NCBI GenBank assembly: GCA_963676515.1
Contig: OY781061.1
Span: forward strand, 620,001 to 684,000
Source of the DNA: G963667145 sp963676515 [NCBI: Candidatus Cloacimonadota bacterium]
GTDB taxonomy: Bacteria; Cloacimonadota; Cloacimonadia; G963667145
DNA: 64,000 nucleotides
Reading direction: 5' to 3'
Under the pieces are notes generated by a model, which was given only the letters and a program-made list of their open reading frames with translations, had not been told where the DNA came from and did not search any database. Below, one piece after another: positions 7,633 to 40,762 of this stretch. The position numbers and the translations under genes were made by a program. Within the stretch, counting starts at the first letter, position 1. Every line of letters starts with the position of its first letter.

Positions 7633-10600
7633 CTATTCTTCCATATAATAAGATTCTGTTACATTTTTGTTTGTACCTGTAGCCTCTCCTGATATACGAC
7701 CTGCATAACCATCGGTCTGTGCCTCTACAGACCCACCGACGACTACGCACTCATCTATCGTGCCACCGTTTGTAGCATCAAAGCTACCCGAGATGCCACC
7801 TGCGTAGCTGTTTGCACCTGTGGCTGAGACAGCGGGGAGTGTAACCAAGCATTGCTCTACTGAGCCTGAGACCACGCCTGTGATGCCACCAGCACTGCCA
7901 CCATCGCCTGTAACCCTGATGGTGGACTCGGATACGCGACAGTTACGCACGACGCTACCTGCGGTCATCTTGGCGACGATGCCACCTGCATACTTAACAC
8001 CGACGATATTGGCAGACTCTAGCATAATATTCTTGATGGTGTCGCCCACGCCTGCCGTAGAGATAAAGAGTCCTGCTGAGTCCATAGTGGTGTCTGCCAT
8101 ATGCAAGCCTTTGATGACATAACTACCACCATCGTAAACGCCTTTGAAGCCAGTCGCTGTGCCGTAGCCTATCGGATAGAAGTCGTCTGCTTCAGTTAAA
8201 TCTATGCTATCCGTTTGGGTGTAATGGGCAGAGTCGGTGATAGCTCTCAGCTGAGCAGGAGTGCTAACCAGATATGGCTCATCCTCTGTTCCTTCGCCAC
8301 CTGCGAAGTCGCTGAGTATGCCATCGTCAACACTCAGAGGTATCCTCAGCAGAGTCGGATAAGACCTGCCATTTTCTACCTCTCTGAAAGCATCGGTGCT
8401 CACGGTGTACCAATTGATGCTGTCTTTCAAGGCAGCTTTGGAGAGAGGAGTACCGTCTTTAGCATCATTGCCTGTGACATAACCTCCACCGATAGTAGTG
8501 AATAACTCATCTCGAATAACCGAGGCAGCAGGATTACTACCGCTTCCCGCTACAGCATTTACGGTGCCGCCATCACGAGAATCTATCGTCGAGGCAAGAG
8601 CAGCAGAGTTTTTGAATCCATAAACATAAGTTTCATCAATAAGATATCCCACTACACCACCTACGGTAGAGCCAGAGTGGAAGGTGTTATAGCTTGCTAC
8701 CAATTCCAAAGCCTGAAAAACATCTACAAATCCTGCAATACCGCCTACTATCTTGCCGTCTGTGAACTCGTTGTTTACGGACATCAGATTCATGAGAGCA
8801 GACCCACTGAATTGCCCAGCTATCGCTCCCACATATCCAGTTCCATTGGAGAATTTAGAGTTGTAGATTCCAAAATTCTGAATAGTTCCTTGGGAAACAT
8901 TAGCGAAGAACCCTTGGTTATCATCAGCGGTCTGCACATCTAGTCCAGAGATGCCACCAGTCAAGAAGTCTGTGCTAAGAGCTGCATAATTTACGACAGG
9001 AGTCCAGTTACCGGCAGCAGTTCCGTTGAGGTCTAGTCGCCAATCGTTCTCGTAATCGCTCAAGTCCACCATATTGCTATCAACATCAAAGCCGGGGAAT
9101 TTAGCCATAACATTCTCACCTTGCAGTGCTTTACCAGTAGCGAAAAGATGCAAGAAGTTGAGCTCGCGGGCTTCGCTGATGACATAATAATTCTTACCAT
9201 CAACAGTCGTATCTCCTAACTCCAGCCCAGCGATGGTGAGTTCTGTCAAATCCATATTTTTGAGCTGTGGTGCGATGTTGTTGTATGGAGCACTTGCGAG
9301 GAATTTCCACTCATCTTGGCTGTAAGCAAGAGTTTTGCCACTAGCATACTCAGTCTCATCATCAAACCAATAATCTTCATCGGTGAGATCCCAGACAAAA
9401 GCGTTGTAGCCAACAGCTGGCTCATAAATCTGAGGATTTTTATCATCGCCACTATTTTGGACTTTGCTGAAATACCAGCCGATACCTGGGTCGCTTCCAG
9501 CATCACTAGGGTTTGCCAGCCTCTCTACATCAGTGCCAGAGGTTGCCGTGATAGAGTCCATCACTACCGCACAATTTTCGAGGTCTTTTGCATGCCAAGC
9601 CAGTCCGCCGACGGAATTGTTGCCTTGGACTTTGCCGCCTGCAGTGACACACCTAGAGAGTGTGGTGTGCGGTGCACTGCCGATGATGCCACCGATGGTA
9701 TCGCCTGTGGTTATTACTTCGTTGTTATACGCCAGCAGGTTTATCATCTTGTATTTGTAAGCTTCTGCCGAAGCATCTTTACCTGCGAAAGCTCCAATGC
9801 TATTGTGTCCATCTCCATAGATTTCCGAGTTGATAATCGCCAAATTCTTGATGCTCTTATTGGAAGAGAGAGCCTTGATGTAGCCAAAGAGTCCGCTGAC
9901 GCCACTTGCCGAGGCTGTGTCTATTATCCCAGATATAGAGTGGTAGCCGCCGTCGAAGTTGCCCTCAAATGGATATTTGTAATCGCCTATGGGTGCGATA
10001 GAGTCTCCTGTGAGGTTGGTGTCCAAGCGGTAGCTCATCTCCACACCGTAACGGATGTTGTTGAGGTCTGTGAAGTTGGCTATGCGGAATGGATCTGTCG
10101 ATGAGCCGCTGCCACCTGCAAAAGTGCGAGGGGAAGCCATGCGGAAGTCGATGTATCCAGAGTCAATCTCTGCTGTAACATTACTGCCTGTAGGCACGAA
10201 CACATACGCTGGGTCTGTGGTTGACCAGCGGAAAGCGTCGCTATCGACACCGATACTACTGTAGTAGAAATCTTTGGTGAACGCCAATTGCGAGCGGTTC
10301 TTGCCTTGTTCGCCGTCTATGCCAGAGTCGTCGTTGCTCAGGGTGCTACCGTTCATCTGTGTGCGGCGGTAAGCGTAATTGCTAGTGAGAGTAGCATCTG
10401 TGCCGTTAGAGGCTACTATCCTACCGAAAAGGTTAGTCGCAGACAGAGAGTCGCCTACGCTTACACAATACTGTATCTCTCCTGGCTTGGTGTTGTAGCA
10501 TGCCAAGCCACCTGCTCTAGCTGCTTTGATGGTGTTGCCAGCAGATATGCTGGTGAAGATTTGCTTGTGGTTCTCACAGGCAAAGGCTGCCGCCCGATCA

Positions 10601-13600
10601 GTGGCGGTGAAGTTGCCATTTTTTACCAGCACATTGTCCACTGAGCCGTAGTTGTGGTAGCCACACAGAGCACCGACAGAATACGCAATCATCTTAGCGT
10701 TCAAGAGGCTGAAGTTGCTCACTTTGGCAGCACTGCCCACTCCTTGGAAGAATCCGACTGCTTTTGTTTTTGAGACATCTATTATGCTCACATTGGAGAC
10801 ACTGTAACCGTTTCCGTCGAAGTTGCCTTGGAAGCTAGATATCGGCTCCCAGTTACCGTTGGCGGCGTCGCCATCGAAATCTATCTGCTCACAGTCTATG
10901 TTCTCTTCGAGGCGGAAGTATTTGCTCTTATCCCCAGCCAGATAGCGAACCAAGTTCAGCTGTGGCAAGGTCTTAATCTCATATGGTGTGTCTTTGTCGC
11001 CGAAGCCACCAGCAAACCTGAGCAGGGCTGGGCTGACATCTGTAGTGTCCATATGCGCGAGCATCGGGGCACATTGCCACTCTGCACCAGCTCTCCAATC
11101 CCAAGCGGAGGTGGAGGTGTAGTCGCTGTAGAAATCTTTGTTCAAGATGTCGGTGAAGCTAGCGGACTGCCCACTGGTGGCAGTCAGTCCCTCCTCTCCA
11201 TTGTGAGCAGAATCCAGCACCCAAGCGTAAGAGTTGCTGATAGCCCCAGCTGACTGATAGCCGATACGGCAATAATTCGACCCACTGATACCTTGAGTGA
11301 AGCTCACACAAGTATCGATAGTTCCCCCATTTATGTGAGCTATGCCATTTACCTTGCTATTAAGAGCTGTGATGCTGTTGTTCAGAGCTATTACCCGACT
11401 GATCTTAGCATATGAAAATCCAGCCAAGATGCCTACTCTGGCACCAGCTTTGTTACCAGCGATTTCACACTCTGAGATGTAGATGTCGGCTATGGTAGCA
11501 GTATTAGATAAATATCCTACCAAGATTCCCACATTGTCAGCTGTTTGGAAATCGGTGATATGGCAGTTTAGCAGTCCTAAGTTGGAGATTTTACCCTGTG
11601 CTACTTTGGCAAATATTCCCAGATTCTGTCCACTTTGTTCGTCCAGAGAGAGGTTCTGGATCGTGTAGCCATTACCATCAAAGTCTTTACCAGATATATA
11701 AGTGACTGGGACGAAATTACCCACGCCGGCAGAGAAATCGTCTTTCTCACTAAAGATGATGTGAGTGTCCAAAACAAAGTCAGTTACACTTGTGGTTTTT
11801 GCATAAGATTCCACAAACGCAAAGTCTAAAGGCGAGGTGATATGCATCGTGGTAGCAGGTAAACCCATCGGACCGACTATCTCTGTGCTGGTTAATGTAT
11901 GGGCATAAAGATTGAAGCTCTTCAGAGTTGGAGAGATTCTAGCTCCACTACCACTATTCCACTTAGTAACAGAAGTATTCAATGAAAGAGAGTCTCTTAT
12001 TCCATCGCCTGTGAGAATGTTCAAGAACATATTCTTTCCGTCTGCGGATTGCTTGTCCAGTCCGATTACCCAAGTGGTGTCATCGCCTACTACGAGGTTG
12101 GTCTCGCCCAGAGAGAATGCAGCGTCCAAAGTTCCACCAAGGCTATGTGCTATCTTGTAAACTTCCATCCCTTGTAGTCGCTCGGCTAAGGAGATGACTC
12201 CTTGCAGAGTTCCATCAGTTTGAGTGCCGACGATACCACTGACGACACCTACTGCACTTATGAGGCTGTCGGAAGTACAGACGACTTGCTGTAACGAGCC
12301 ACCGCTCATCTGGGCTACAGCTCCTGCCACATTTCCTAGTCCGCTGATGTAGTTGTCGATGGTGCTCACATTGCTGATAGCACCACCAGCCAGAGAGGCA
12401 CAGATGCCTGCGACACTCGTAGCGTTGGCTACCAAGTGAGAGGAGTCGAGTTGCACTTGGTCTATCGTGCCACCGTCCATCTTACCGCAGAAAGCGGCTA
12501 TCATTTTGCCACTGGAGATGTCGCTTGTGATATTGCTCATCCGCAGTTCGCTTATCTTGCCGCCAGTGCTCAGATATCCTACCAAACCACGGTAAGTGGC
12601 TGAGCCTTTCTCACCAGAGTTGTCGTAGGAAATATCTAGGTTGCGGATAGTATAGCCAGCTCCAGCGAGCTCACCTGTGAAAGGCATACCTTGCGTAGCG
12701 TAGCCGATAGGTGTGTAGCCTTCGTAACCTGTGAAGTCGAGGTTGCTAGGCAAAATATATTTGTCATCAAGTCTCAGCCCGTCTGGCAAGCTGTCCAACA
12801 TGGTATAATCTTTGTTCAGCAAGCGGACATCGCCGATAGCATCCAGCTGGATTTGGCTCGTTATCTCATACTCGCTGTTTGCATTTGGATACATCCTGAT
12901 AGTATTGCTGAGGATAGAGGTGTCTATTCTGCGAGGATTTTCCACCAAGATCGGGTAAGAATAGAAATTCCACAAATCGTAGTCGGCATCGCCTGTTATG
13001 TCTTCTGACATCAAAATCCTGTGCTCTAGCACGACCATCCCTGTGGTGTCACCAGCTATGTAATTCGCCACGCTCTTAGATATTTCGGCAAAATTAGTGC
13101 CGTCTGTGCTGTTTTGATTGTTGGTAGCGTAGCAACTGCTAAAACCGCCGTCAGTCATCTCTCCGACGAACTTAGAGGTAGTTCCACTAGTGTTGGTTAT
13201 ATTGTTGAGGATAGCGTAAGAAGTGTTCACTTCTCCACTGGTCAGCTTGCCCACCAGCAGACCCATCTCGCCCAGAGCTCCGTTTGCGTTCAGAGCGTAA
13301 ACATACGATTTGTCCAAGCCAGTAGAGCTAGCATCCACTGCCACTTCACCAACTAGTCCACCAGTAGTCTCTCCGCCAGTGATGCTCACCAAACTGTCTG
13401 CATACGATTTGCTTAGCTTGGAGCTTCCGCTTACCTTGCCGAGCAACCCTCCGACTGTGTTAGCACCGCTTATAGTGGCTCTGGCACAGAATCCCGTCAT
13501 CACACCTTGGCTTGCCTCGCCTAGCAGACCGCCACACACAGAACCATCACTAGTGGAAGTGACATCTAAATCGATGCCCGTAGCAGAGGTGTCCACCAGA

Positions 13601-15390
13601 GTGGCTTTGGTCGTAGCCAATAGCTCGCCTATCAGTCCGCCGACTTTGCAGTCAGCTCCTGTGGCGATGGTGATGTCCACTGCACCATCGTAGTCCAGAG
13701 TCAATGCGTTGATGACCTCTAGCCTGCCGACTAGTCCACCTGCTATCGAGTTGTCGCCTACTTCGGCAACAGTCCAATTGACTTCATAGATACAGCTAGT
13801 GTCTAGTTGCAAGTCAGCAGATTTGACATCGCCAGCATAGCTACCGACTATTGCCGAGTCGCCCACTTTGAAGTCGAAGTTCTTAAAGGTCAGCTTCTCG
13901 TTGCCCAGAGTGGCGTTTCCGTTATATTTACCATAGATACCGCCCAGCGTTACTTGGTTGTTTGTGAAAGCACCATCGGTGAAGTCAAGGTTGATATCGA
14001 TATTACAATCTGCTGTCGTCGCGGCTCCAGAGTAGCCAGCTAAACCACCGACTATGAGCTTGGTAGCACCATTGAGCTTCTCAGCGAATATCACGCTGTC
14101 TGTGATGGTGATGTTGTCGTAAGAGCTGCCCTTGCTGTTCTCATAGCCCACTGCACCGCCAACATAGGCAGTCGCACCTGTGCTAGCGAACTGTGCTCTA
14201 TTTACTGCGATGTTAGTCAGTTTCAGGGCGTTGCTCTGCCCTACTGCTCCACCCATGCACGCTTTGCCACTTACAGAGCTAGCGGTGATGAACACGCCAT
14301 CTGCCATACGCAGATGCATTGTGTCGCTGGCACTACCGATGCCTAAGGCGGAGATGCTCTCCACCAGACCGACCAGCATTCCAGCGTAGGCATCGCCTGT
14401 ATTGGAGCTAGAGGCTATCTCTTTGTCCGAGCTGAAGTCAAAGTCCGACATACTTCCTGACAAATAGCTGAACCTGCCGATTACACCGCCTGCGGCTGCA
14501 TTTCCATCAGCAGAGCCTTTTATGGTTGTCTTATTATAGAGGCTGATACCGCTGATGCTCTTGGCTCTGTTGTAGCCTATCAAGCCACCGACGAAAGCGG
14601 TACTAGAGGAACTGCCCTCTGCGACTACGAAGCCGACGCTGTCCACGGTGATGTCGCTGTAGGTAGCTCCCGAGAGGCATTCGCCGACCAGTCCGCCTAA
14701 GCGAACATCTGTGCTTGTCGATGTGCTTCGCAAGGTAATGCTGTCTACTTTTGCCACTTTGCAATCGGTCATCGTGCCTTGGAATGTTCCTGCGAACCCA
14801 CCTGCGATGGAGTCTGTGGCTACAGAGCTGGTGCTGTGTACTTGGCAGTCGCTGACTTCGTTGAGCCCTGTCATCGCACCTGCGAAGAGTCCCACAGAGT
14901 TGCTACCGCTGATCCTGCCTGTAGCGAAAACTGTGTCGTTAGTAGCTGTCACCTTGCCACTGCCACCACCGATCATACCGCCTACATAGCTACCGCCGCT
15001 TACTGCTTGCAAGCTGACCTTGTTCCCTGTAAAGGTGTTCTCGCCATTGACCACTGCCACCAGTCCACCGAAGTATCTTGCCGAAGTGGTGATATCTCCA
15101 GCGTATTCAACTTTCACATCTGTTATCTCGGCAGAGCTTATCTCGCCGAAAATTCCCAACCGTGTATCTGTGGCATCGTAGGTAGCTACTTTTATCGTGT
15201 ACCCTTGTCCAACGAACACGCCTTTGAACGGATTTGCGGTCGTGCCCATCGGTTGGAGAGTGTCGCTTTGGAATGAGATGTCGTTTAGCAGTTTCACCTG
15301 AATTTTGCCACTGACCATACCTGTTTCTAGTTGCTCGGAGAGGTCGTTGAAGTCTCTGGCTGAGGTAATCTCGTAGTAGCCACCACTATA
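7633..15390 (-). other. GLUG-type C-terminal region of the giant protein, about seven blocks
   Basis: From about residue 8,316 the FN3 pattern stops. Each new block opens with a phrase such as YYEITSARDFNDL, FAGGFGDKDTPYEI, FAGGSGSSTDPFRI or FAGGEGTEDEPYLV. It continues with a P-I/V-G/T ... F-x-G-x-x-D/G-G-x-G-Y-x-I-x-x-L segment and then G-G-x-V/I-G repeats. Block starts lie near 15,385, 12,875, 11,845, 11,015, 10,125, 9,185 and 8,305. The first is the longest and carries the most GGLVGE/GGLIGY units. Such repeats are known from bacterial surface proteins and are expected to form a beta-solenoid; function is unknown. The protein ends at SYYMEE with no anchor. Confidence 0.7.
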
Positions 15391-33300: not shown

Positions 33301-36300
33301 ATAGCGATACACGCCGCGGTACTCGTTCATTGCCACGGAAGCTGTGTATGTAGTAGCTCCAACATCTAGCGAGCTGATAGGTGTGTCCCAGAGAGTCGCT
33401 TTGTCTGCACTCCCATAGACTTTCACTGACATATTGTCGGGGTTATCCCAGCGGAGCGGTATGCTGTCATAATAATATCGATTGTCGTAGTTGGCTTCAA
33501 AGTTCTGTGGAGGCTTGATAGAGAGCCAACCTTCTAGCTTATTGTAGCTCACGCCAGAGCTGTGCTCCATCGTGTATGCCGAGCTTGCCATAAGCCCCTC
33601 TACGCGGAAGTAGTACACTTTGGCAGAGTGCAAGTGGATGGTGCTACCCTCACTCCTGGGCAGAGCGTAACTCACATCTGTGCCGTCGTAGTCGTAATCG
33701 GCGGCGGTCAGTGTCTTGGTATGCTCTTCACCACCCTCGTATTGCCAATAGAGCTGGTAAGAGACATACTTGTTGTGCTCATACGCGTCGCAGGCACTCC
33801 AGTTCACCAAGATGGTGTCCACGCTGTAACCTTTGGACACAGACTGCATCACGGGGGCACTAATCCTCACATAGCCCGAATCTACGAAAGAGGGGTTAGA
33901 ATTTAAACTGACAATCTTAAAACTTGCCTGCTCATTCGTGCTGACAGCGAAGTAGTACTTTCGCCCTCTTCGCAATTTGATAGTGTTGCCATAAGTCCAA
34001 TCAAGTTCTTTATCCACGGCTAGGCTATACGGCGAGTTGCTGATGGCATCATCATTAGTGATTCTTTTGAACGCTGTGTTCTTCGCCTCGTCTTGGAAAT
34101 CTCTATAGATACTATCGGCGTAGACATTGTAGGATATCGGCTGATCACTTGGCACTTCGACCCACTTTAGCTCTATCTCGCTATCGTAGGTGCCTTTGCT
34201 AGCTACCAGTCCATCAGGCGGGAAGACGACTGTCTTTACAGTCTTCGTGCCAGACTCGTCGGAGTAGCCAGCGTAACGATTGTAGTACTTTACGCTATAG
34301 CTATAATCGGTGAGTACTGCCAGCCCTCTGGTGTCTTCGTAGGTGGTGTCAGTTGCTCTGTTTGCTACTTGTGTTATCACGAGCTTCGAGCCGACATCAG
34401 TCCCCTTTTGCCTGAGGATGCGGATAGAGTCCAGCCAGTCGTTGCTATTGCCTTTATAAGTGATGGTCACACCCTTGTTCAGTGGTGATAAACTCTTGAT
34501 GACATCTCCCACGACTGGTGTGGGCATCTTGGTGTAGGTCAGCAGCTCTTCGCTCTGCTTGGAGTCGCCGAAGGTGTTCCGAGAAGACGACAGCCTTATC
34601 TTGTAACCTTTCATCCTGTCTGCTGCGGGGATAGTAATCTCTTTCTCAGTAGTGATTATATTTGTTATGTCTGGATATGCCGATCCGTCTGTGGGCTCTA
34701 CAGTCAAGGTGTAAACAGTGCTACTCATCTCCAGAGAGCAGGGGTCTTCCCAGCGGATTACTATCTTGCCCTCTTGCAAAGCTAGTGTGCCTCCATCGCC
34801 AGTGAACTCTGTGATCACAGGAGCGGGCATCCTTGCCCAGCCAGAGTCTATCGTGCTCGGGTCGGATGGACGACCTCCTCCACCCACGGAGATGATGCGA
34901 TAATAGTACATCATGCCTTGCTCACTATATGTGAGGACATCGTTGTATGTGAACTCTCTGTCATAGGGGTTTAAGTCCCAAGTGAGGTCTTCTGGTGTGG
35001 CGATAGTCCGGAAGCTGCTAGTGTCGATTCCTCTTTGCACCTTGTACATCTCTGCACCGTAGTTGCCAGAGGTATGGCTAACTGACCACGAGACTTGCAC
35101 GGTGTCGTCTTTATCGCCCTCGGTAGCTTCTATATCATCTGGTGGCTCTAGCAGAGCCATTCCATAATCCACTTCAGACCATTGCGAGGTGTCCATTATT
35201 TCTGAGTTTATTGCCCTAACATAGAAGGTGTAAGTGTGCCCACCGTAAGCATTGGTCACAGTGTAAGAGTTGCTATTGCCTACATTGACCAGATTGTCTG
35301 AGTTCGGTCCTACTACCCTGAGCTGACCATCTGTAGCCCTGCCACTATAACTCCACTCGACTCTTATCTTGTGACTAAGATCTTGGGTGACAGTGTCGAT
35401 AGAGGGTTTGGGAGTCTGTGCCCAGCCGTAGTAGTAGCTCGGAGTGGGTGTCTTGGGTGTCAGTTCCGACCAAATGCCGTCTGGCGTAGTGCGAGTCCGC
35501 AAGCGATAGTGATACTTCTTGCCACTCTCAAATTTATCTGGAGCGGTGCTAGAGTTGTGCGTCACATTGTAGAGTGTGTCCCTCGACTCCGCTATGTTTA
35601 GTGTATCCCAGGCTATGTCGTTTGTGTAATCGGATTCCGAAGCGTAGACGAAAACTTGGAATTTCGTCTCATCACCAGTAGGCAATGCTGGCCAGCGTAG
35701 GTATACACCCGAGGCAAGCTCTCCTGTGGATATCGTGTCAAAAGCGATCGTGGGTATGAGCAAAGTGATAGCTGCAGTGACAAACTTGGAGTTTTTCTCT
35801 AGCTCGTCTGTACGGAAAGCTTGTGCCTGATAGATAAGCTCCTTGCCCACTAGCCTGCCGGTGTCTATGTAGCTGGTCACGCCTTTGGGTAGCACAGCCA
35901 CAGGTGTCCACTCTGCTCCCTCTCGCAAGAGTAATCTGGTGCTATCCGAGCTGCCTGCCGATGACCATGTGAGTCGCACGCAAGCACTGTCTGTGCCAGC
36001 GTATAGCTCTGCAGCTGTGAAGTAGCTCACGGTGTCCATCTTGCAATAGCCCGTCACCTCTTCGCTCTTGTCCGAATAGCCAAAGTCCGTAGTCAAGGCT
36101 CGCACGAAGAAAGTAATATCTATGCCTTTGTCTTGCGATGGCACTGGGTACTCGTAGCTCTCTAGCGTGGATGCTACTCCTGCCACAGGCACACTCGGAG
36201 CTTCGGCTCTGTATATGTAATAGCTATCCACTGGTGTAGTGTTCAGCATGTCCCAGCCAATCCTAATGATGTCGCTGAGATTTTCGGTAACTTCTATATT

Positions 36301-39300
36301 TCTGGGAGGCTCTACCATCAGATAACCATAGGCAGTGTCGCTACGCTCCACAGAGAGTAAGGTGCTTCTTTTCGCCTCTATCTCGTAGCCATAGAGCTCG
36401 CCATCTTTCATGCTCTTTTCGCGATAGTCGATGTATCTATTCTCTTCCAAAGTTAGCTGATACCTCAGGACTCCATCACAATAACGCCGCAGCTCATAAG
36501 AAGTGGCAGCTTCTATCGCATCCCAAGAGATCACTACGCTATCTAGGTAGTCGCCCTTGGTAGCAGTCACTCCACTGACTTTGGGCAACTTGGTGTATCC
36601 TGTGGCATACACTTTGTGAGAGTAGAGCGTGGTGTCGCTATAGTCGGTGGTGCCCATTTGGTTGTCCAGCGTGGCACGCACCTCATACACATACTCTTTA
36701 CCTCGAGCTACGCTTCCATCGTAAAAATAAGCCGAATCTCCGCTGCTGATTACCGTGGGATAAAGCACTGTTTTACCTGAACTACTACTCCTGAGAACCC
36801 CATACTTAGACACCAGCGGGATGTAATCCCAACTAACTTTGACAGTGTCTTCGTACTCGCCTTTGCTAGCTACCACATTTTGCGGAGCCAACGGTTTCAT
36901 AAATCCTCGCACGCTGTCCGATAGCTCATAGGAGTCAGGGTAGTCGGTAGTGTAGCTTTTTATCTTGTAATAATACAAATAGCCTTGGTCGTTACCGTAT
37001 AAATAGCTATCAATCCAAGTGCTATCCTTCCTCTCCCTTGCGGCGGTGCTCCAGCCAGAGGCGTCCACTCTTCTGCGTAAAACATCATAGAGGATCGTTC
37101 CAGGCAAATCCGACCACTCTACTAGCACCGAATCGACCTTGTCTGTGCTGGCTTTCAGCCCTAGCACTTTGCCCACTTTCACATATCCCGAGGTTGTATC
37201 CGAATAAGCAGAACGCACCAAATCGGTGTTGAAGTCCATATAGTAATCGTTGCAGACTTCCAGAGCTGTCTGGTTTACCAGCCGATAGCTGTAGAAATAC
37301 TTATAGCCAGCTACCACATCCTTGTCATTATACAGAGGATTTTGCACCGCGATGTCTATAGTCTCGCCATCCAAAGATCTTATCCGCGATATTTCGTATG
37401 TAAAAGTGTTGGGATTGTTTGGCAAGTCCCAAGATAAATCTATGTAATCAAGCGTGCCCTTGCTGGCTGGCGTGCTAAAAGATGGCTGAAGCAACTTGGA
37501 AAATCCCGGTAGAACACGGCTAAAAGCAGAAAACTCGCCTGCCTTGTTGGACACCAATTTAAAATAACACAGTTGCCCATCTTTCAGGCTCAAATCGCCG
37601 ATGGGCATAGCGTATTTCACTCTGCCAGTACTATAGGTGGTCACCGCCCCTGTGTCTATCCATATCGCCTGCTCCACTGGGAAGCTTGGGTTGGTGGAGT
37701 AGTAGCACAAATAGTAATTGGCTTCGGTGTCTTCTTGGAAATAGACAGAGATTTCGCCCTTTGCTGCTCCGCAATCCACACTGTAAAAATCGGGTGGACG
37801 AATCTTGATCATCCCTGTATCTATGTTGCTATAGCGAGGCTTTACGGTATCTTGCGAGATGTACTCGGCTCTATAAGACTCTACCCTGTACTTATACTTC
37901 ACAGCTCCGCTGAGGTTGTAATAGTCATCATAAGAGTACTCGGTGTAATCGCTACTTTCGTTTGCCTCTTGCACACCTACTTGCACGAAATCGCTATCTG
38001 TCGCGACGCTTCTCCAAATTAAGAATTTTTCTATCCCACTAATCTCTTGGGTGTACCAGTGCAGGCGAATAGTATCGGAGACAGTCCCCATGGTAGCCGT
38101 GAGACCGTAGGCGGTGTCGAGCTTGCTAAAGCCTTTTTTGCTGTTACTTTTCCCCGACTCCTCGGAATCCACTGCACTCACCACGAACTCGCAAACCTCA
38201 CCCGGAAGCAAAATTTCACTATTAGATAGCGTCAAGTAAGTGCTTGAGGTCATCCCCATCAACACATAACCATTATCATTCTTGTAAACTCTATATCTCA
38301 CACCTGCTACATCGGCCTTACCAGTCCAATTCAGATATATGTATCCATCTTGATCTTGCGTAGCATAGTCTAGCACTGGCGGTCTGAGCAGAGTCCTACC
38401 CGCTACTTTTGCAGTATCCTCAGACATCTGGAAAGTATCTTGTGCTATCTCCTGATAACTAACTGTGCGAAGCAAATATGCGTACTCAATCCCCGAAGAA
38501 AGTCCTTCGTCGTAGTAATTTGTAACCGTCCCAGCGATAGTGTCTATCGTGTCATAGACGCTGTCTAGCGAGTTTATCTTGCGTTGCAAGACGAACTCTT
38601 TGGCATTAGAGATAGCGTTCCAGCTCAGTTGTAGTTGGTCGGCGTCGCGTTCTACCACTTGGAAATTACTCGGCGACTCTATCCTAATCCAACCAGAATC
38701 GGCAGAAGAATATTCCGAGAAAAAATCGCGATACGCCTTCACGCGGAAATAATAAACACTGCCCGTAGGATAGTAAACATCGCTGATCCAATAAGCCGTG
38801 TCTTGGCTATTGCCCTCTAGCTCCAGATTCAAAGAATCTTTGCCGATATATACATCGTACCTTTGAGCACCGTCCACTTTGTCCCAGCTAATAGTTACCC
38901 TGCTAGAGCTCGTCCCTTTCGTGGCACTCAAACCTTGCGGAGCAGCGAGGATGCTACTGCCTAGCACCTCTTGGGAATGCCCCGAAGCCCCCACTTGGTT
39001 GGTGCCCTCTAGTCTATACAGCACTACCGAGTAATAATATTTCTTACCCGGAATCACGGTGGTATCCGTAAAAGTAAAGTTCCTATAATTAAGCTTTTGC
39101 GGCTCACCCAGAGGCATCCGCTGTCCATTACCAGAAAAGCTGCGACGGTATAGCTGAGCATACACATCCACGAAAGTAACATCTCCCGCTTCGTACTCTA
39201 AGAACACCGAGTCTGCTCTATCGTTAGACACGCTGAGGTTTTCAACTTCGTCGTAATTTTTATAGCCAAGGTTATTGTATACGCCTGTGCTATCCATTTC

Positions 39301-40320
39301 GTCTCTATTTTCGTTGAAGTCTAGCTCTTCAGCAGTACCCGTGCCACTTTCCACAAGCCCAATCACAACATAGCGATAGCCTTGACCCATTAGCAAACTA
39401 ACATCATCATCCATATAGCTGCGATTAATAAAGTCGACATTGTCTGCATACAAGGTCTCTACGAGATTACTGTATGTTGTCAATCCTCCCGTCTCTGCTC
39501 TGTAGATGCGGAAGCCGACCACGCCCTCTACTCGACTCCAAGTAATGTAGACGCCATCTGGGTAAATTCCTTTGCTAGCAACCACTTCTTTCGGCGAAGT
39601 TACAGCTGCCTTACCCACAATCTTGGTGGTAGCATCCGAATGCTTGTACAAGATATCTGCCGTCCCTGTTCCTTTCACAGATGTTATCGCCCTGATGTGG
39701 TACTCTTGTCCCGGCACCAAATCTATAAGATCATAGCTACTTCCAAGATCCGAGAGCATTATTTTTTCCGACTTTTCGTTGAACACAGTAGCAGCGTTTT
39801 CGGAATAATAAAGAGTAACATACCCCTCGACAGCGGAGCTTTTGATGCTCACAGGTATATCCCAAGAGACCTTAATCTTGCCCATTTGGTCGTCCGTAGC
39901 CTCCATATCTTTCAAGGCTGGCACTTTCACATTACCGATACCTATCATCTCTGATTTTTGCGATATGGAGCGGGCGTAGGATGCTATTCGGTAATAATAA
40001 AATTTGCCGGGGATAAGATTTTCCACTGGATCTGTGTAAGACATACCACTCACCGTGGCTACCTTTGAGTAATCTTTGCCCTCGGTATCGGGGCTCTCTG
40101 CTCTATACACAGCGAAAGTTTCTGGATCGCCAGAGCAATTCCATGTGACATCGATGCGGTCATCATAAGAGGTAGTGGCTTGCACATTGTACGGTACAGG
40201 AGCTACGGTGTTGCTCACCGCCATATCGTTGCAGGCAGACAGCACGACCACAGCAAAAAGCATCAAGGTCCTCAAGACTCTGAGCATCCCACTCCTGCTT
40301 TTTGCACTGACTATCGCCAT
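7633..40320 (-). CDS. Giant modular lipoprotein (about 10,895 aa), FN3-like array plus GLUG-type C-terminal blocks
   Basis: One open frame of 32.7 kb without an internal stop. I chose the ATG at 40320 because AGGAA lies 4 nt upstream; a GTG at 40332 in the same frame is the alternative. Residues 1-30 are a lipoprotein signal: basic n-region, hydrophobic LMLFAVVVL, lipobox LSAC with Cys30, then N-D. Residues about 35-8,310 are fibronectin-III-like modules of about 95-110 residues with the recurring pattern A-S/T-K-G-x-x-x-D-x-I-x-V-S-W ... Y-x-I-Y-R ... G-x-x-Y-Y-Y ... G-Y. By length this suggests 80-90 modules. Residues about 8,316-10,895 are GLUG-type blocks (see separate entry). The protein is acidic and rich in D, S, T and Y. 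No enzymatic domain, outer-membrane pore, LPXTG signal or type IX sorting domain is visible. A surface adhesin or stalk-like scaffold is an inference. It appears to be transcribed alone. Confidence 0.85.
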   Translation of the reverse strand: MAIVSAKSRSGMLRVLRTLMLFAVVVLSACNDMAVSNTVAPVPYNVQATTSYDDRIDVTWNCSGDPETFAVYRAESPDTEGKDYSKVATVSGMSYTDPVENLIPGKFYYYRIASYARSISQKSEMIGIGNVKVPALKDMEATDDQMGKIKVSWDIPVSIKSSAVEGYVTLYYSENAATVFNEKSEKIMLSDLGSSYDLIDLVPGQEYHIRAITSVKGTGTADILYKHSDATTKIVGKAAVTSPKEVVASKGIYPDGVYITWSRVEGVVGFRIYRAETGGLTTYSNLVETLYADNVDFINRSYMDDDVSLLMGQGYRYVVIGLVESGTGTAEELDFNENRDEMDSTGVYNNLGYKNYDEVENLSVSNDRADSVFLEYEAGDVTFVDVYAQLYRRSFSGNGQRMPLGEPQKLNYRNFTFTDTTVIPGKKYYYSVVLYRLEGTNQVGASGHSQEVLGSSILAAPQGLSATKGTSSSRVTISWDKVDGAQRYDVYIGKDSLNLELEGNSQDTAYWISDVYYPTGSVYYFRVKAYRDFFSEYSSADSGWIRIESPSNFQVVERDADQLQLSWNAISNAKEFVLQRKINSLDSVYDTIDTIAGTVTNYYDEGLSSGIEYAYLLRTVSYQEIAQDTFQMSEDTAKVAGRTLLRPPVLDYATQDQDGYIYLNWTGKADVAGVRYRVYKNDNGYVLMGMTSSTYLTLSNSEILLPGEVCEFVVSAVDSEESGKSNSKKGFSKLDTAYGLTATMGTVSDTIRLHWYTQEISGIEKFLIWRSVATDSDFVQVGVQEANESSDYTEYSYDDYYNLSGAVKYKYRVESYRAEYISQDTVKPRYSNIDTGMIKIRPPDFYSVDCGAAKGEISVYFQEDTEANYYLCYYSTNPSFPVEQAIWIDTGAVTTYSTGRVKYAMPIGDLSLKDGQLCYFKLVSNKAGEFSAFSRVLPGFSKLLQPSFSTPASKGTLDYIDLSWDLPNNPNTFTYEISRIRSLDGETIDIAVQNPLYNDKDVVAGYKYFYSYRLVNQTALEVCNDYYMDFNTDLVRSAYSDTTSGYVKVGKVLGLKASTDKVDSVLVEWSDLPGTILYDVLRRRVDASGWSTAARERKDSTWIDSYLYGNDQGYLYYYKIKSYTTDYPDSYELSDSVRGFMKPLAPQNVVASKGEYEDTVKVSWDYIPLVSKYGVLRSSSSGKTVLYPTVISSGDSAYFYDGSVARGKEYVYEVRATLDNQMGTTDYSDTTLYSHKVYATGYTKLPKVSGVTATKGDYLDSVVISWDAIEAATSYELRRYCDGVLRYQLTLEENRYIDYREKSMKDGELYGYEIEAKRSTLLSVERSDTAYGYLMVEPPRNIEVTENLSDIIRIGWDMLNTTPVDSYYIYRAEAPSVPVAGVASTLESYEYPVPSQDKGIDITFFVRALTTDFGYSDKSEEVTGYCKMDTVSYFTAAELYAGTDSACVRLTWSSAGSSDSTRLLLREGAEWTPVAVLPKGVTSYIDTGRLVGKELIYQAQAFRTDELEKNSKFVTAAITLLIPTIAFDTISTGELASGVYLRWPALPTGDETKFQVFVYASESDYTNDIAWDTLNIAESRDTLYNVTHNSSTAPDKFESGKKYHYRLRTRTTPDGIWSELTPKTPTPSYYYGWAQTPKPSIDTVTQDLSHKIRVEWSYSGRATDGQLRVVGPNSDNLVNVGNSNSYTVTNAYGGHTYTFYVRAINSEIMDTSQWSEVDYGMALLEPPDDIEATEGDKDDTVQVSWSVSHTSGNYGAEMYKVQRGIDTSSFRTIATPEDLTWDLNPYDREFTYNDVLTYSEQGMMYYYRIISVGGGGRPSDPSTIDSGWARMPAPVITEFTGDGGTLALQEGKIVIRWEDPCSLEMSSTVYTLTVEPTDGSAYPDITNIITTEKEITIPAADRMKGYKIRLSSSRNTFGDSKQSEELLTYTKMPTPVVGDVIKSLSPLNKGVTITYKGNSNDWLDSIRILRQKGTDVGSKLVITQVANRATDTTYEDTRGLAVLTDYSYSVKYYNRYAGYSDESGTKTVKTVVFPPDGLVASKGTYDSEIELKWVEVPSDQPISYNVYADSIYRDFQDEAKNTAFKRITNDDAISNSPYSLAVDKELDWTYGNTIKLRRGRKYYFAVSTNEQASFKIVSLNSNPSFVDSGYVRISAPVMQSVSKGYSVDTILVNWSACDAYEHNKYVSYQLYWQYEGGEEHTKTLTAADYDYDGTDVSYALPRSEGSTIHLHSAKVYYFRVEGLMASSAYTMEHSSGVSYNKLEGWLSIKPPQNFEANYDNRYYYDSIPLRWDNPDNMSVKVYGSADKATLWDTPISSLDVGATTYTASVAMNEYRGVYRYYGARFYDEIFNLSGVTDPSCQDSGFAKFGPVNITYVSKGDYGDKIVVKWDSLANADQYYLAIEKENGDPAGEDNGWKEYPSFSRDCSFLTLTAGQSYYVKIKGKNSAIGNSDLWGVYGERVLGFTQLPMVHGVIASDGLYEDKISVDWNPITGDLDYYQVFRSDDSSEVGIKIADVLKGTSPPTRYIDESPDLWRGREYFYTILATNDNTVSLSEEKQNYSELDTGWVKMPIVTTLSATKGTRKNMIVLEWEQLEKVQGYYVDTCDTDSILGYATFDTIKTASIARAEYDIGEGLEKGRCYHFRVRAFTDERENSLEEVAHDSGYMFVDEVSQIMVSQGYALDTINLTFSQVNQYDQAYNYNLQRRNAKENATIEDVIFTDFGASSGTIKITDTAYDIDTGFIYQYRARVAIPSQNLLSGWSNWSLVGWAKLPQLPINVYSEQDSLRVDTIKVFWNKDTLSSQKATKLQIDYGLGENNFQSSVTFDDRNELDKGYLMLSATDYKAIEPGTVYYFRAKVYRTEGIAEIASAFCAIDTGWYQLETPQLTTMGVGESPDSILVSWSVQESLPEQVKSAMEYVVYREGSALDTVINGVSYYYDTTGVDYGSSFEYSVQATHPRFLLSDTSAAVKGYAGLLIPVLDTVIAGEDSLVVEWSYDTGIDIDSFRLYRKESVSGPYPASLHTAEYDLAKGSYTWSDLSCQKGVTYYYCLRAYKAGLELSEASEQKSNHIELNVPVIDTVSRGEATDAITISWERDSYNKSVTIVRDTAPSFATAETLTTVDYVMGKYTDKQSLKDGQIYYYKLIGKRNGFVSDSSDFMAGYTKYATPTINSVTNNEDSISMEWQENGEPLDSIRLYIGDDIELYSLQDSVDLGEKAIPNLISSFDDASWFVPGRDYYIRIKGICNYTLAMREGADLDTFTIFSERSSGKMCYSKLATPELEVTRNRQDTIIVRWNKMDKELVDILQLEWKTGDFAGTGDTIVREIYNSGEDSLLAILVNTDGDYPLLAATKYSFRIKAVRGDVTSQYSLVDTGWSKLPAPTSLTATKGEYDDSIRFTWENYLEGTNPAVDSTTSYVIRYLDSLGDYQVFKEITDRAKFYDATYAVGTLAKGRIYNFQIEGQKEATSDIENDSINLPQDSGWSRLPKPVATTAVISTDMTGKIKLAWTKLLIDEDLTANYSDINMVYQISRKVDGGNYADYGYQTLTDYTASSFIDSFKLMPQYKYHYRLRYYSSYYYDILRDSDKSSSPWVELDTFGMIKIPAPTVERYRSGYFFYPSKIELKVKRVDGCDTLELYRKIAGAVAYNKLVDVVFPSLDEVGYGAMMLYTDEDGLAIGEAYEYVGVALSAGRRSDTSAACMSFTTPGLVTDVSATKATSEDSVVITWDTVASADMYDVLVLDEDDQPVDTVRVPSQDSILCLYKNGLHDGFLEYGIVYNFGVISKNARCVYEGDTIGSEPAYDRGYLRFVEPTITRMSHNEDGKIDIGLKCDATGFSFYVYRSPVDAYLTGKTSSYAAYKKITLSAVDNGDSTYTCTDNLSTTDGVAGVKYAYNFRVFKGNIQDAISDTTKSDTMSDAALRFGYAKIEQYDGMMQSTGNEYTDSLVVTWNDLSVKDLVDTLKYKWYEYQNSALIDSGIVDTNRLVRDTSVIHRGIKYKYLLKQIAVDKDGDYYTISDISNIGAIGWAKMKAPILTCVRNINDDNQISIDNTILPYKLSREINGIETQEVTLAVGARYVDSVLAERDNAGKHVRYRAKIFSTDNNLESEWSDSVDTFYRIESPESFTATQGDYDDKIDLAWAWQNQEAADVDSFLIYRYEDGSLDKTIRLKGISNQVTIVEDTFLYEDMADLLQGVAYKYTIASKRVNDGFDDRESAPSDSATGYEIFSAPENVWATEGDTTVTLSWDKITDQGPVDNYFIFYSDSVNGDFADTLPRVDSTVKSVEDLNLPQGNVHWYKVAAFSNITQQGELSPATRGYALMAPISGMICWKGKNTDTIKVTWDVESVYETYYAEWSTSSDEADGRFTTIIGSVGSFRNSSYSKDSLLIVTNADSLRGRQIYIKLWAQNPYGGSESVMDSGYTQLRVPTNFSVSRGTETDSTIRFLFTPRAGNNDKNYTIYYYYDQSKLGDHGLCKSIEGCEVNDTAVVVDNKGYYYYAKVQAVSDLADASSDFVYDSGYSQIPASVELTGVAQSDGTNDLSWKVVKIGSTIADTVKYDLYRIDASGYTQKVANKYWAKVNHDSIIYTDTDCLPGATYEYYLQSFATTRPTQASVAVSIKSDTTAHYKLTTKIGSVSDFYQDDINLSTDKATLYWTQRGNLQNYDIGYSSQADTVKVKLIPQTITNGNFFAEIGDSLALYPGMLWHFWIRAKNEAETEFGEWTPNTKQGLLVYTLPATPDGLTVSQGTSTDTISAYWSSVDNSDHYRVAIYNPTTLAWVESYEPGVPEIELDKTGNCKFLIEGQKFSIKVAAKITKDENSPAGNTNGIYGRDLYSAYSTVRTGYLKYSEVENFRVYNEDDKIQADKITLHWSKKAGSDIVYSIYRATTTDSNTATLLVELVDEDSCVDTRYDAGDAPLPGEAYYYWITAKKRTLPDSESLKKRVAGYNGITPNGEDSAWTKLLSPSGLTASGVYVSSMGDNNKSISYADSIAISWDKMDEVDSFRLRSANGELDTIVADTTCDWLSMVRGQLYYFQVSGFNSFVGKNNPVWSSLKSGFATLPAPENLAMAADSLVDEVQISFDTVAGASEYWVYASTPTDASFSKISEVLHSSSSRVEIVDNESNPGDTVWYFVCAYNETTGSSDSSLIVDTLYPVVPPSGLTASKGDEDDMVSVSWTLDHRTSGVDSFRLYRDTLGGAWEESDHLATISSFSGQYYYYDDMLASQTDDADTLYSGKKYVYALKSYANEHASVFTADADVDTGWVALPKVSRVYANFPAALHDTIAVHWSVPATINPDINFVYRRVKMKTGDYDTIYQSQEDGSIIADTFVQDTAYLVEGMVYTYQVKAFSDKHLVTSALGDVSEWSNKTGDELGSKGMISSAWSPVGYGGLKFALPEVYAVNAQDSLRVDSILVRWDIDSLVTIYKLQIDTSSDFASILFNQGFQNNELRELDSYMYAPYAGLEKAKDYYFRIQKQNQESEIYAWDSVSSPWSEPDSSWSQLIPPTGITASSDRKDTIFVQWDKYDWAQPVNYVVKYQDTSGTWDSITGLGDVDSCKFYSPYLEDQKLIGVYTQHAHFGKSDISSPLVVGIGKLEPPTFSVSPTKGDYEDSIYMTINEQGVSSDKTTFRLFYSDDSTSQEITSDDPEVGSYIEADDSTIVLDAANGLAYAEFGNKIYIRVSWSLGGVYSQKSDKDSGWTRLRAPLNFKEVKLADPLDTMAIGLGWSNPPNTDSIYIFRKNVEGATWETHKRISAAGESQTYYDTILEADRRKTYRYKLSGINEIVSQYNYTDSVEAYVKVYDVEDFSASDGSKRDTVEIDWLADLDTFFTIRVYSDAAYSSQVDSIMDNETSAGATWLPDKSTTFPGLWYYFRINLEGYENRPIVKFAAVDSGYARVPEISKDSVLITNDTSQILLGTHTSNVGDSAFTQFDATGAFKIGYIQKIYISEYSENIEDFRILDTLLKSSDEIVKDEGVTFGAINRYKLKFINQMETGFEREYYSYTTLRKPSMGWKISSLNGENIKLLVYGEENDRSLIDTVVVYRTSSKGALDTLIYSYPTGANPVTLIDSKDLQQGMFYSYKAALYNNETGISRVCDSIDTVYVKLDVPVLDSVSQGTNRDTIFVRWQSVADAKNGYRIYRNTSYPSGSFVLLDTLSDTLYADTLEYEQCQNVYYRVQAVGTDTVSVMSECVEDYGFRGFRSVDNLEVLDMPQLTKVVLHFSVPTTVPLENPDPNASFSKGVRLMRYDTVTEIADTDSSYAPTFSVTDQGSGHYKLVNSAPDDVLLGQLYFYRVMVKPRDFSEVSELSNVVKGFILPPKVTVVQASKGTKTDTIVVTWQKIAASLVADDTISSHIVVRSNDNFVANIDTFWVGGNDSVFLDDVSRLDTAILPGCDYSYKVKAVVKISDADTGGVAFDTTLYSDYSAVATGYAQIPALHSNQVSVTSGNLSGRSWIVPPTAEDSVVTIEFKDLPTKYATAMNIYRKADDDERFTLVETLPITSEDTIYHDTVSGERKRGELLYYRLKLTTDYEADDYFDTVAFTTLQEPTKLEEMTSDNAVVKLLVARTANSSPADSLKLMKYDLAGDKQDSIIYPVTRQLFTIEDTTGTPGVQYVYKAAFYDDSTGYGPYGDLKITAGKTILPPEILSISKGEYEDSLYISWSSNANAANGYIIYRDTSWGTGMVDANYDSMCTVTGDTVYADEFSYFPGKYVYYKLVSIGQDVRSERSSADYGFLQYGGVDDLEVKGWQDDMSTTTLQINWTMPTALSIDSIFMARLTDVDSSNNLDTLKAHRLPNDEFAGRVTDSVDGASTRYTYLNETAADELTLGQLYFYRVRVKVVGVHEASKPSNLGIGYLSLPQVENVYATKGDGDSIIISWTQVPNVKNDAVDSYFIYRSDGETAVVVGDTDELTDYSDGTSSFGTALEKGRDYKYAVVAKLNITQDTLPGSGAGNFVKDLLSPISDSSLGYTSPDSSYIVSASQGTVPDMVKITYTSAEYADTVLLYRKLATAEQWQTEPLVGLAKDQNEAIYEDEAISFGAEYHYKILTTKGAAKRWSSVDTGYALLCKPDSILIANNGKNLTKVVLQIFSPNDEKYQDSIVVYKKRTNGGVADSMTYSVQSSMLANLYVVNDTYNIQQGVFYEYKVRFKNDLGSSPYTPAKNQKAYAKVETPILQSVSRRQWEDTIQLKWGKIDDAVKGYAIWVDSTVNTDGTDLSKYECIDSTTANFNDTIYSDSCTFLPEQKIYYLVQALGLDTCSDYSSADWGSCLYEGIDTLHFDETAPKVDTIHLSWYIPPVIDNPAMTLYRYDTATTTDQLTAQYEMNNQPIYPLSGSDTFYYMEDTPADDDLTIGNLYFYRCVVTVGGVDCDANEPNYAFLAMPDVAGFSATRGGDYIPDFTHYMDSIVISWQPIENFNPAKQVEYILSKYDAGGTKLAQKNIVGDTSFTEVVGIATYLDTIQKGANYRYSVRAYYEISETLPDGTTTYTSEIISADSTIVTGYTYPDSAVIDSISQGTIPDTIAIYYTTPEYADSIVFYRANEGGVQVRVDTLPRSKTTQAIAKDSSEFLSAGKKYFYQIKVYKNGLVNSSNTEYGYTKLSAPDSVWWTPVGDQYADGYQDTSAITIVWNSVADADGYFLYFGKSSLTGNFAPLDSMQIDFNSDTIRNYTPQDYTNRADSIFDYYFAVKSYKTNKDALYYSNLSVEDSGVLASQSVVGLSAAYDAAQDSIKVSWTGLRTNYDISEVDSYSIYQATNSKAVGAFSKVATATAGLATSIYISKDSTLQGNIYYYKVKVHYHTDKRTSIYSDVTTDGASLPLGDMNLRVSQNGKKLTVTFDTIAGATTYKLYRAWDTVPSTDKGYSQKWTGTQISQMAAGDSVVYTDNVAYSGKIYYYAMTIEKEVTVDGEDLTLSTQYGFDASEKSWGYIESGVAKVDFDFMAGGIKLFWDRDLNFPGVVSPVRYDLCRGSSPAVGSYVDITAKIGKSIDGDDTTYILKDSAETVFSTSKEIGKTYRYILRAKIESSLGDSMFIVSDSMDMLYDYLWHNDSTSTNGGYRATEGNYEDKIVFTFDQLLPYRPADDYDEEGITPDTLSRYTVTRYKEQSDGSFLEENSLTLTKSQFGVLAVSGGKNIFQYEDIHGASGFGAELSSGSKYNYSVQGFIDYGGGTIFQSSTIKDSSICAGYLKIVGLTLEDVDYIMNGDEREGLGLKMTTQNIPADCYLVGRDTLGSFANADIDSLPATNATILKSSPLVTDDTFIVDSNRYLDADSSPLGRTRLGKTYTYRVKKGASSAGTDTLYSDWSNAISFTYGYSGGYYEITSARDFNDLSEQLETGMVSGKIQVKLLNDISFQSDTLQPMGTTANPFKGVFVGQGYTIKVATYDATDTRLGIFGEISSAEITDVKVEYAGDITTSARYFGGLVAVVNGENTFTGNKVSLQAVSGGSYVGGMIGGGSGKVTATNDTVFATGRISGSNSVGLFAGAMTGLNEVSDCQVHSTSSVATDSIAGGFAGTFQGTMTDCKVAKVDSITLRSTSTSTDVRLGGLVGECLSGATYSDITVDSVGFVVAEGSSSSTAFVGGLIGYNRAKSISGISLYNKTTIKGSADGNAAAGGVIGRFSYLSGSMSDFDFSSDKEIASSSNTGDAYAGMLVGLVESISALGIGSASDTMHLRMADGVFITASSVSGKACMGGAVGQSNALKLTNIAVNRAQFASTGATAYVGGAVGYENSKGSSYDNITITDSVIFAEKLNGATKLIVGGLAGYSGAATTADCNIDINLDFTDGAFTNNQVTLGGIYGKYNGNATLGNEKLTFKNFDFKVGDSAIVGSYAGDVKSADLQLDTSCIYEVNWTVAEVGDNSIAGGLVGRLEVINALTLDYDGAVDITIATGADCKVGGLIGELLATTKATLVDTSATGIDLDVTSTSDGSVCGGLLGEASQGVMTGFCARATISGANTVGGLLGKVSGSSKLSKSYADSLVSITGGETTGGLVGEVAVDASSTGLDKSYVYALNANGALGEMGLLVGKLTSGEVNTSYAILNNITNTSGTTSKFVGEMTDGGFSSCYATNNQNSTDGTNFAEISKSVANYIAGDTTGMVVLEHRILMSEDITGDADYDLWNFYSYPILVENPRRIDTSILSNTIRMYPNANSEYEITSQIQLDAIGDVRLLNKDYTMLDSLPDGLRLDDKYILPSNLDFTGYEGYTPIGYATQGMPFTGELAGAGYTIRNLDISYDNSGEKGSATYRGLVGYLSTGGKISELRMSNITSDISSGKMIAAFCGKMDGGTIDQVQLDSSHLVANATSVAGICASLAGGAISNVSTIDNYISGLGNVAGAVAQMSGGSLQQVVCTSDSLISAVGVVSGIVGTQTDGTLQGVISLAERLQGMEVYKIAHSLGGTLDAAFSLGETNLVVGDDTTWVIGLDKQSADGKNMFLNILTGDGIRDSLSLNTSVTKWNSGSGARISPTLKSFNLYAHTLTSTEIVGPMGLPATTMHITSPLDFAFVESYAKTTSVTDFVLDTHIIFSEKDDFSAGVGNFVPVTYISGKDFDGNGYTIQNLSLDEQSGQNLGIFAKVAQGKISNLGLLNCHITDFQTADNVGILVGYLSNTATIADIYISECEIAGNKAGARVGILAGFSYAKISRVIALNNSITALNSKVNGIAHINGGTIDTCVSFTQGISGSNYCRIGYQSAGAISNSYAWVLDSAHNGEEGLTATSGQSASFTDILNKDFYSDYTSTSAWDWRAGAEWQCAPMLAHMDTTDVSPALLRFAGGFGDKDTPYEIKTLPQLNLVRYLAGDKSKYFRLEENIDCEQIDFDGDAANGNWEPISSFQGNFDGNGYSVSNVSIIDVSKTKAVGFFQGVGSAAKVSNFSLLNAKMIAYSVGALCGYHNYGSVDNVLVKNGNFTATDRAAAFACENHKQIFTSISAGNTIKAARAGGLACYNTKPGEIQYCVSVGDSLSATNLFGRIVASNGTDATLTSNYAYRRTQMNGSTLSNDDSGIDGEQGKNRSQLAFTKDFYYSSIGVDSDAFRWSTTDPAYVFVPTGSNVTAEIDSGYIDFRMASPRTFAGGSGSSTDPFRIANFTDLNNIRYGVEMSYRLDTNLTGDSIAPIGDYKYPFEGNFDGGYHSISGIIDTASASGVSGLFGYIKALSSNKSIKNLAIINSEIYGDGHNSIGAFAGKDASAEAYKYKMINLLAYNNEVITTGDTIGGIIGSAPHTTLSRCVTAGGKVQGNNSVGGLAWHAKDLENCAVVMDSITATSGTDVERLANPSDAGSDPGIGWYFSKVQNSGDDKNPQIYEPAVGYNAFVWDLTDEDYWFDDETEYASGKTLAYSQDEWKFLASAPYNNIAPQLKNMDLTELTIAGLELGDTTVDGKNYYVISEARELNFLHLFATGKALQGENVMAKFPGFDVDSNMVDLSDYENDWRLDLNGTAAGNWTPVVNYAALSTDFLTGGISGLDVQTADDNQGFFANVSQGTIQNFGIYNSKFSNGTGYVGAIAGQFSGSALMNLMSVNNEFTDGKIVGGIAGFVDVFQALELVASYNTFHSGSTVGGVVGYLIDETYVYGFKNSAALASTIDSRDGGTVNAVAGSGSNPAASVIRDELFTTIGGGYVTGNDAKDGTPLSKAALKDSINWYTVSTDAFREVENGRSYPTLLRIPLSVDDGILSDFAGGEGTEDEPYLVSTPAQLRAITDSAHYTQTDSIDLTEADDFYPIGYGTATGFKGVYDGGSYVIKGLHMADTTMDSAGLFISTAGVGDTIKNIMLESANIVGVKYAGGIVAKMTAGSVVRNCRVSESTIRVTGDGGSAGGITGVVSGSVEQCLVTLPAVSATGANSYAGGISGSFDATNGGTIDECVVVGGSVEAQTDGYAGRISGEATGTNKNVTESYYMEE
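15400..40215 (-). repeat. Fibronectin-III-like module array inside the giant protein
   Basis: Modules follow one another nearly head to tail. Typical module starts include SVSQGTNRDTIFVRW, SISKGEYEDSLYISW and TATKGEYDDSIRFTW. Typical ends are G-x-x-Y-Y-Y-x-V-x-A followed by a G-Y/W-x-K/R-L/M-x-x-P linker. Sequence identity between modules is low except for the conserved W, Y and G positions, which points to an old, diversified array. Bounds are approximate because module edges were set by eye. Confidence 0.75.
17700..22400 (-). repeat. Higher-order repeat of about 1.6 kb (five FN3-like modules), about three copies
   Basis: A landmark module recurs near 21,980 (SVSQGTNRDTIFVRW), 20,370 (SISKGEYEDSLYISW) and 18,780 (SVSRRQWEDTIQLKW). 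A second recurs near 21,340, 19,710 and 18,130. The spacing is therefore 1.58-1.63 kb, or 525-540 residues. Within each unit the module order is the same and unit-specific phrases return, such as LLGQLYFYRV, LTLGQLYFYRV and LTIGNLYFYR. Modules before the first landmark (QQGMFYSYKAALYN) match those before the third (QQGVFYEYKVRFKN). This indicates multi-module duplication. Edges are approximate. Confidence 0.7.
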
Positions 40321-40474
40321 AATTTCCTGCACCTTATGAGTATTTGCATACCTTTTTACCTTCTTAGTTTACCACTTTTCTCGAGGGGAAGTCGTCTCCA
40401 CAAACTAGCCAGAGATCGCATACTACTGCCCCCATAATAGTAAATTGTTGATAGCCTCTAAGTTTGTCAACAAA

Positions 40475-40563: not shown

Positions 40564-40762
40564 AAAGGTAACCACTTAAAACACAGGCGGTTAGCAAAAA
40601 GGAAAAGAAAAGAACAAATCCCGATAAAGGGGTTTACTGAAAAACATAAATATTTTTTGTATTAAAAAGATTTTTTTGACTTTTATTTTTTCCAGTGTGG
40701 TTTTTACCCTACAAAATCTCCACTTTCTCGTTTAATTTTTTTTAAAGATGAACACAGATGAG

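Follow-up and report, generated by a model that had tools for sequence, protein, structure and literature searches.

A predicted giant bacterial lipoprotein with a long FN3 stalk and a beta-helix head, a candidate surface tether

We analysed a window of 64,000 nucleotides from a Candidatus Cloacimonadota bacterium (assembly GCA_963676515.1, contig OY781061.1, positions 620,001 to 684,000) and find on its minus strand a single 32.7-kb gene for a predicted lipoprotein, in which a lipobox signal is followed by a very long stalk of fibronectin type III (FN3) domains and by a C-terminal head of beta-helix blocks (Table 1). On balance, and with modest confidence, we read this giant protein as a surface tether or adhesin that would be fixed to the membrane by lipid, with roughly 78 FN3 domains in its stalk and a ligand-binding beta-helix at its tip. 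Positions are those of the window; residues are numbered from the GTG at 40332 unless stated otherwise, while Cys30 and the length of 10,895 residues are counted from the ATG.

The initial annotation had described one unbroken gene, and the minus-strand frame at 7633-40332 indeed contains no internal stop. Over the same stretch the remaining coding-strand frames have 715 and 556 stops, and the three antisense frames 238, 580 and 632. Given the base composition, a stop-free frame of this length has a log10 probability of about -250. From the sequence, the ATG at codon 5 (40320) appears the better start than the GTG, because AGGA sits four bases 5' of it in GTGCAGGAAATTATGGCG. Tandem Repeats Finder reports no array within the gene and aligned pairs of FN3 units share a mean protein identity of about 31%, which makes it unlikely that misassembly of identical repeats inflated the length.

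The codon usage of eleven slices of the gene is closer to that of the genes on the left (r 0.70-0.92) than to that of a polysaccharide cluster on the right (r 0.10-0.47), so that the giant gene follows its left-hand neighbours and not the AT-rich sugar cluster. At the nucleotide level, FN3 unit pairs are identical at fractions of 0.465, 0.519 and 0.319 of codon positions 1, 2 and 3, against 0.291, 0.256 and 0.257 for random codon pairs within the gene; identity at position 2 exceeds that at position 3 in all 49 units compared, in alignments that were built on protein and are thus biased towards positions 1 and 2. The long alignments of a super-repeat described below, where alignment is less doubtful, give 0.297-0.315 at position 3 and 0.537-0.558 at position 2. 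Taken together, these identities argue that the FN3 units are old and yet still constrained as protein. That the frame is not one expressed protein, and represents instead an assembly product or a decaying array, is therefore very unlikely in our view: although neither reads nor an ortholog lend the frame independent support, the 10,899 codons without a stop, the uniform codon usage across the eleven slices, the divergence of the units with no near-identical repeats and, with the alignment bias just noted, the excess identity at position 2 all speak against it.

The N-terminus carries a hydrophobic signal and a lipobox cysteine, the combination by which bacterial lipoproteins are recognised, and lipidation is predicted from this motif. 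Cys30, as named in the initial annotation, is confirmed when counted from the ATG, the gene coordinates given there having used the GTG four codons upstream. The signal peptide is the most hydrophobic stretch of the whole protein, in which we found no strong candidate for a second transmembrane segment, no C-terminal anchor and no LPxTG. Residues 9001-10899 gave no NCBIfam match to a type IX secretion sorting domain at E 0.01, and Pfam scans of the protein slices returned no RTX model that would point to type 1 secretion. Since a lipobox alone leaves the final membrane or face unfixed, and since the C-terminal sorting search brought up no surface-export signal, the protein might be a structural component of the periplasm, or one facing the inner membrane, that never reaches the surface. 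We consider this improbable, as FN3 arrays and beta-helices typically belong to exported surface proteins and a stalk this long would have no obvious use inside the periplasm.

The stalk is an FN3 array, as had been proposed. Pfam fn3 (PF00041) scores above its cut-off of 25 bits in slices 1-6 of ten 1000-residue slices (27-60 bits). The count of 78 units comes from a profile grown on, and trained with, the protein's own repeats, and successive unit starts lie about 105 residues apart on average, counted over 79 starts after two gaps had been filled manually. A held-out profile made from 34 N-terminal units, which is independent except for the unit boundaries, gave 35 matches at an independent E value below 0.01 that cover 74% of residues 4041-8316; neither the head nor any of 20 shuffles gave a match. 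A profile of 57 of the units searched against PDB sequences matches titin at 4.2e-31. The AlphaFold2 model of a two-unit segment, residues 1150-1343 (pLDDT 81.4, pTM 0.68), retrieves FN3 pairs with Foldseek, the top match being the tenascin FN3 pair 1qr4 (TM 0.61/0.66).

Within the stalk, three tandem copies of a block of about five units form a super-repeat, whose copies match each other at E 1.8e-31 and 5.2e-39, whereas the remaining long pairs in the list fall between about 1e-7 and 1e-17. Because these values lie so far below the others, the sequence points to growth of part of the stalk through segmental duplication of the five-unit block.

The head is assigned as a GLUG/M26-type beta-helix by our own profiles and by predicted structure. 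In leave-one-out tests each of its seven blocks is found by the other six at 42-65 bits, while 50 shuffles of each reach at most 10 bits. The AlphaFold2 model of block four (pLDDT 86.6, pTM 0.85) has 3n6z as its top Foldseek match (E 1e-5, TM 0.72), followed by IgA1 protease chains. A GLUG-kind motif of the form G-G-x-V-G, in a pattern written for this analysis, matches 27 times in the head against 3 times in the much longer stalk, and on average 5.6 times, at most 13, in 200 shuffles. The curated models do not confirm the assignment: Pfam Glug (PF07581) reaches 10.9 bits (E 0.68) in residues 10001-10899, under its cut-off of 20.5, and is not listed when residues 8301-10899 are run as one query, while Peptidase_M26_N gives E 2.6e-5, under its Pfam cut-off. 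A PDB sequence search with the profile of head blocks likewise returned nothing significant (best E 0.19). The GLUG blocks named in the initial annotation thus stand by profile and structure, and fail by curated Pfam models and PDB sequence search. The match of the head to the non-catalytic beta-helix part of M26-type proteins led us to weigh also whether the protein belongs to the M26 (IgA1) proteases, with a stalk of extreme length. We give this almost no credence and it was already disfavoured, since Pfam scans of all slices contain no M26 or other catalytic domain and the giant protein has no HExxH.

For the tether or adhesin we propose the following arrangement. The N-terminal lipid would anchor the protein in the membrane, and the stalk of about 78 FN3 domains would hold the head some 230-310 nm away from it if fully extended, an FN3 domain being 3-4 nm long. 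The seven beta-helix blocks at the free C-terminal end may then bind a ligand, for which other cells, host surfaces, mucus and polysaccharides are all candidates, and the stalk would reach past the capsule or O-antigen layer of its own cell. Both the initial annotation and our analysis infer a tether or adhesin as the likeliest role; the prey or host contact that had also been suggested finds no evidence here.

Several points weigh against this proposal. Slice 7 (residues 6001-7000) has one Pfam fn3 match, at 23.2 bits and below the cut-off, and slice 8 (residues 7001-8000) has none. The match to 3n6z is the sole Foldseek match of the head below E 0.001; the best known relative of the head is annotated as a putative protease, not as an adhesin, and the capacity of GLUG blocks to bind a ligand is assumed. 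No secretion route was identified for so large a lipoprotein, with neither a type IX nor an RTX model found. Lastly, that the protein is lipidated, moves to the outer surface, extends there and binds through its head is deduced.

Table 1 Features of the giant gene, its product and its surroundings in the window.
Feature	Position	Strand	Description
Giant gene (GTG frame)	7633-40332	minus	10,899 codons and terminal stop
Giant gene from likely ATG	7633..40320	minus	10,895 residues; predicted mature part about 1.19 MDa; isoelectric point 4.5
Lipoprotein signal peptide (MAIVSAK...LMLFAVVVLSAC)	40231..40320	minus	lipobox LSAC, Cys30 from ATG
FN3 stalk, residues 47-8316	15385..40194	minus	78 detected units, two of them fragments
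FN3 super-repeat, three tandem copies of about five units	17713..22503	minus	period 533-539 residues (about residues 5944-7540)
C-terminal head, residues 8317-10899	7636..15384	minus	seven GLUG/M26-type right-handed beta-helix blocks (by own profile and structure)
Head block starts	residues 8317, 9152, 9493, 9773, 10070, 10376, 10676	minus	boundaries set by eye
Left flank		minus (purH, apt); plus (others)	purH, apt; ftsY, tetratricopeptide repeat (TPR) protein, Lys/Glu-rich protein, dapA, PHP phosphatase
Right flank		same as giant gene	galE, then polysaccharide cluster (cluster about 29% GC)
Intergenic gap, galE to giant gene	40333..41419	.	1,087 bases with REP-like palindromes

On the left, the PHP phosphatase gene is convergent with the giant gene; a strong plus-strand hairpin with eight T after it, at 7524-7553, is likely the terminator of the PHP gene. 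The Lys/Glu-rich protein at 4663-5742 has LQxL/SKL-type repeats and a weak N-terminal VirB9/CagX-like match under cut-off. Among genome contigs DapA matched 20 loci, with no more than 49% identity across almost its full length and 51% over a fragment of 85 residues. The identity of PurH did not rise sharply within the phylum groups of G007 (4 of 145 genomes at E <= 1e-95, 41-42% identity), G008 (1 of 120, 43%) and G013 (0 of 297 at E <= 1e-100, an empty result that by itself shows nothing). In the gap 5' of the giant gene we observed three palindromes resembling repetitive extragenic palindromic (REP) elements at 40749-41397, with the core CCCGCGAAAGCGGG (3 matches against 0.07 expected), as well as two direct copies of 129 bases with 86% identity. 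A promoter scan 5' of the giant gene gave one site against 1.7 expected, nothing beyond chance, and the Rfam search returned no match at gathering level.

The polysaccharide cluster (O-antigen or capsule) extends over 42503-64000 and probably was acquired, as its composition suggests: it has about 29% GC, and its GC content at third codon positions is 0.21 against 0.52 in the left flank, with galE intermediate at 0.43. Such a cluster fits a need to reach beyond the cell's own coat, while the codon usage tells of different histories. The giant gene adjoins galE and the cluster and runs in the same direction; the head has weak Foldseek matches to pectate lyase and carrageenase folds (E above 0.01), and an FN3 domain protein is reported among those Fibrobacter succinogenes envelope proteins that are grouped with cellulose degradation (PMC4619616). 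Based on these observations the protein could instead be a carbohydrate-handling surface scaffold, whose beta-helix would bind polysaccharide, to feed the cell or to hold its own capsule in place, and would not act as a cell-cell adhesin. We hold this to be unlikely, though less so than the other alternatives. In the Pfam scans neither a catalytic nor a binding domain of the CAZy type appears, the host is not known as a Fibrobacter, and the cluster differs from the giant gene in GC content and codon usage, so that adjacency need not mean joint function.

To place the protein among its relatives, we searched with several of its parts, and these searches revealed no ortholog. The C-terminal 4,999 residues pattern-matched 41 stretches of genome contigs, none of which is a relative, in a search able to detect close relatives only; viral contigs gave no match to the last 4,899 or the first 4,900 residues. 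The N-terminal 3,000 residues matched six plasmid records at 24-27% identity and no phage record, as well as 4 of the 64 genomes of one phylum group (G011), with FN3-only frames of 652-2,150 residues, the largest of which (2,109-2,150 residues) have 17-18 units. The head profile matched 24 of 198 genomes (phylum group G008), 25 of 194 (G007), 70 of 299 (G003) and 8 of 20 (family G384), in open frames of other phyla with E down to 1.9e-33. The Glug family control gave 0 of 1 genome (G007) and 2 of 14 control genomes. By its sequence matches the head profile is not private to the giant protein. The longest matching open frames elsewhere have 1,622 and 4,063 residues, and at least 1,703 and at least 3,648 among the matches listed, a comparison that covers the phyla reached, is not a survey, and in which contig ends may cut frames.

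Among 491 frames of at least 250 residues in 66 loci, 25 have FN3, 30 have GLUG and 4 have both, two of these four being one gene in two overlapping loci, which leaves three genes. All three belong to one spirochaete genome (G384, contig C201; L030/L058) and encode a lipobox, then 1-3 FN3 and then 1-3 GLUG blocks, in frames of 1,182, 770 and 627 residues. They share one 19-kb stretch (L058, C201:12000-31000) and are possibly a small gene family. Because these genes carry the same order, the giant protein is, at the level of sequence, an extreme extension of a design that exists elsewhere in small form.

We tentatively suggest, and regard as somewhat less probable than the tether role itself, that the protein may represent a class of lipid-anchored giant tethers, which would have one of the longest bacterial FN3 stalks, would hold a head of several beta-helix blocks roughly a quarter of a micrometre away from the cell, would have arisen from small FN3-GLUG lipoproteins through duplication of segments, and would need an export route undescribed for so large a lipoprotein. 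The functions of giant bacterial genes are mostly guessed, and here both main parts have a recognisable fold. If made and exported intact, the protein would clearly exemplify the derivation of a giant surface protein from a small modular lipoprotein plan, and would pose the testable question of how the cell translates a lipoprotein of about 1.19 MDa, keeps it unfolded, lipidates it and brings it to the surface.

The initial annotation held that the protein matches no named system, and this is not supported in that form, given the small spirochaete forms, the stalk-and-tip plan of MpAFP and SiiE and a giant of Apilactobacillus kunkeei (PMC12863079). The published literature searched, to which bioRxiv preprints do not belong, contained no FN3-GLUG giant lipoprotein, from which we claim no absence; huge proteins in UniProt have been the subject of earlier work (PMC11573180). 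The spirochaete lipoproteins share the order of lipobox, FN3 and GLUG-type blocks and are detected by the giant's own profiles, and differ in having 1-3 FN3 and 1-3 GLUG against about 78 and 7, with no ortholog at sequence level. Marinomonas MpAFP, with about 120 repeats of 104 residues and a mass of 1.5 MDa, and Salmonella SiiE, with 53 BIg domains and 595 kDa, likewise have a long stalk of modules of Ig-like or FN3-like size that holds a binding end off the cell. Both are type 1 secreted proteins of the RTX class, and the MpAFP repeats are identical and calcium-dependent, unlike the giant, which is a predicted lipoprotein of diverged FN3 units with no RTX model match.

A. kunkeei Giant4, of a class of surface proteins of 3,000-8,000 residues, resembles the giant in joining an array of beta-sheet domains to a beta-solenoid domain; it differs as a shorter protein of a Gram-positive bacterium, with a Sec signal, a C-terminal DUF5776 and no lipobox (PMC12863079). 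The giant open reading frames of Omnitrophota, above 20 kb and with proposed roles in adhesion or predation, are reported to carry few annotated domains and transmembrane helices (PMC10066038), whereas in the protein studied here two folds cover the chain densely and no strong second membrane segment is seen. 3n6z (BACOVA_03286) and the N-terminal regions of IgA1 proteases have a beta-helix fold like that of the head blocks, and the giant differs from IgA1 proteases in lacking the M26 catalytic domain. Thus the kind itself is already known, and what is new here is the order of lipobox, FN3 and GLUG at this length.

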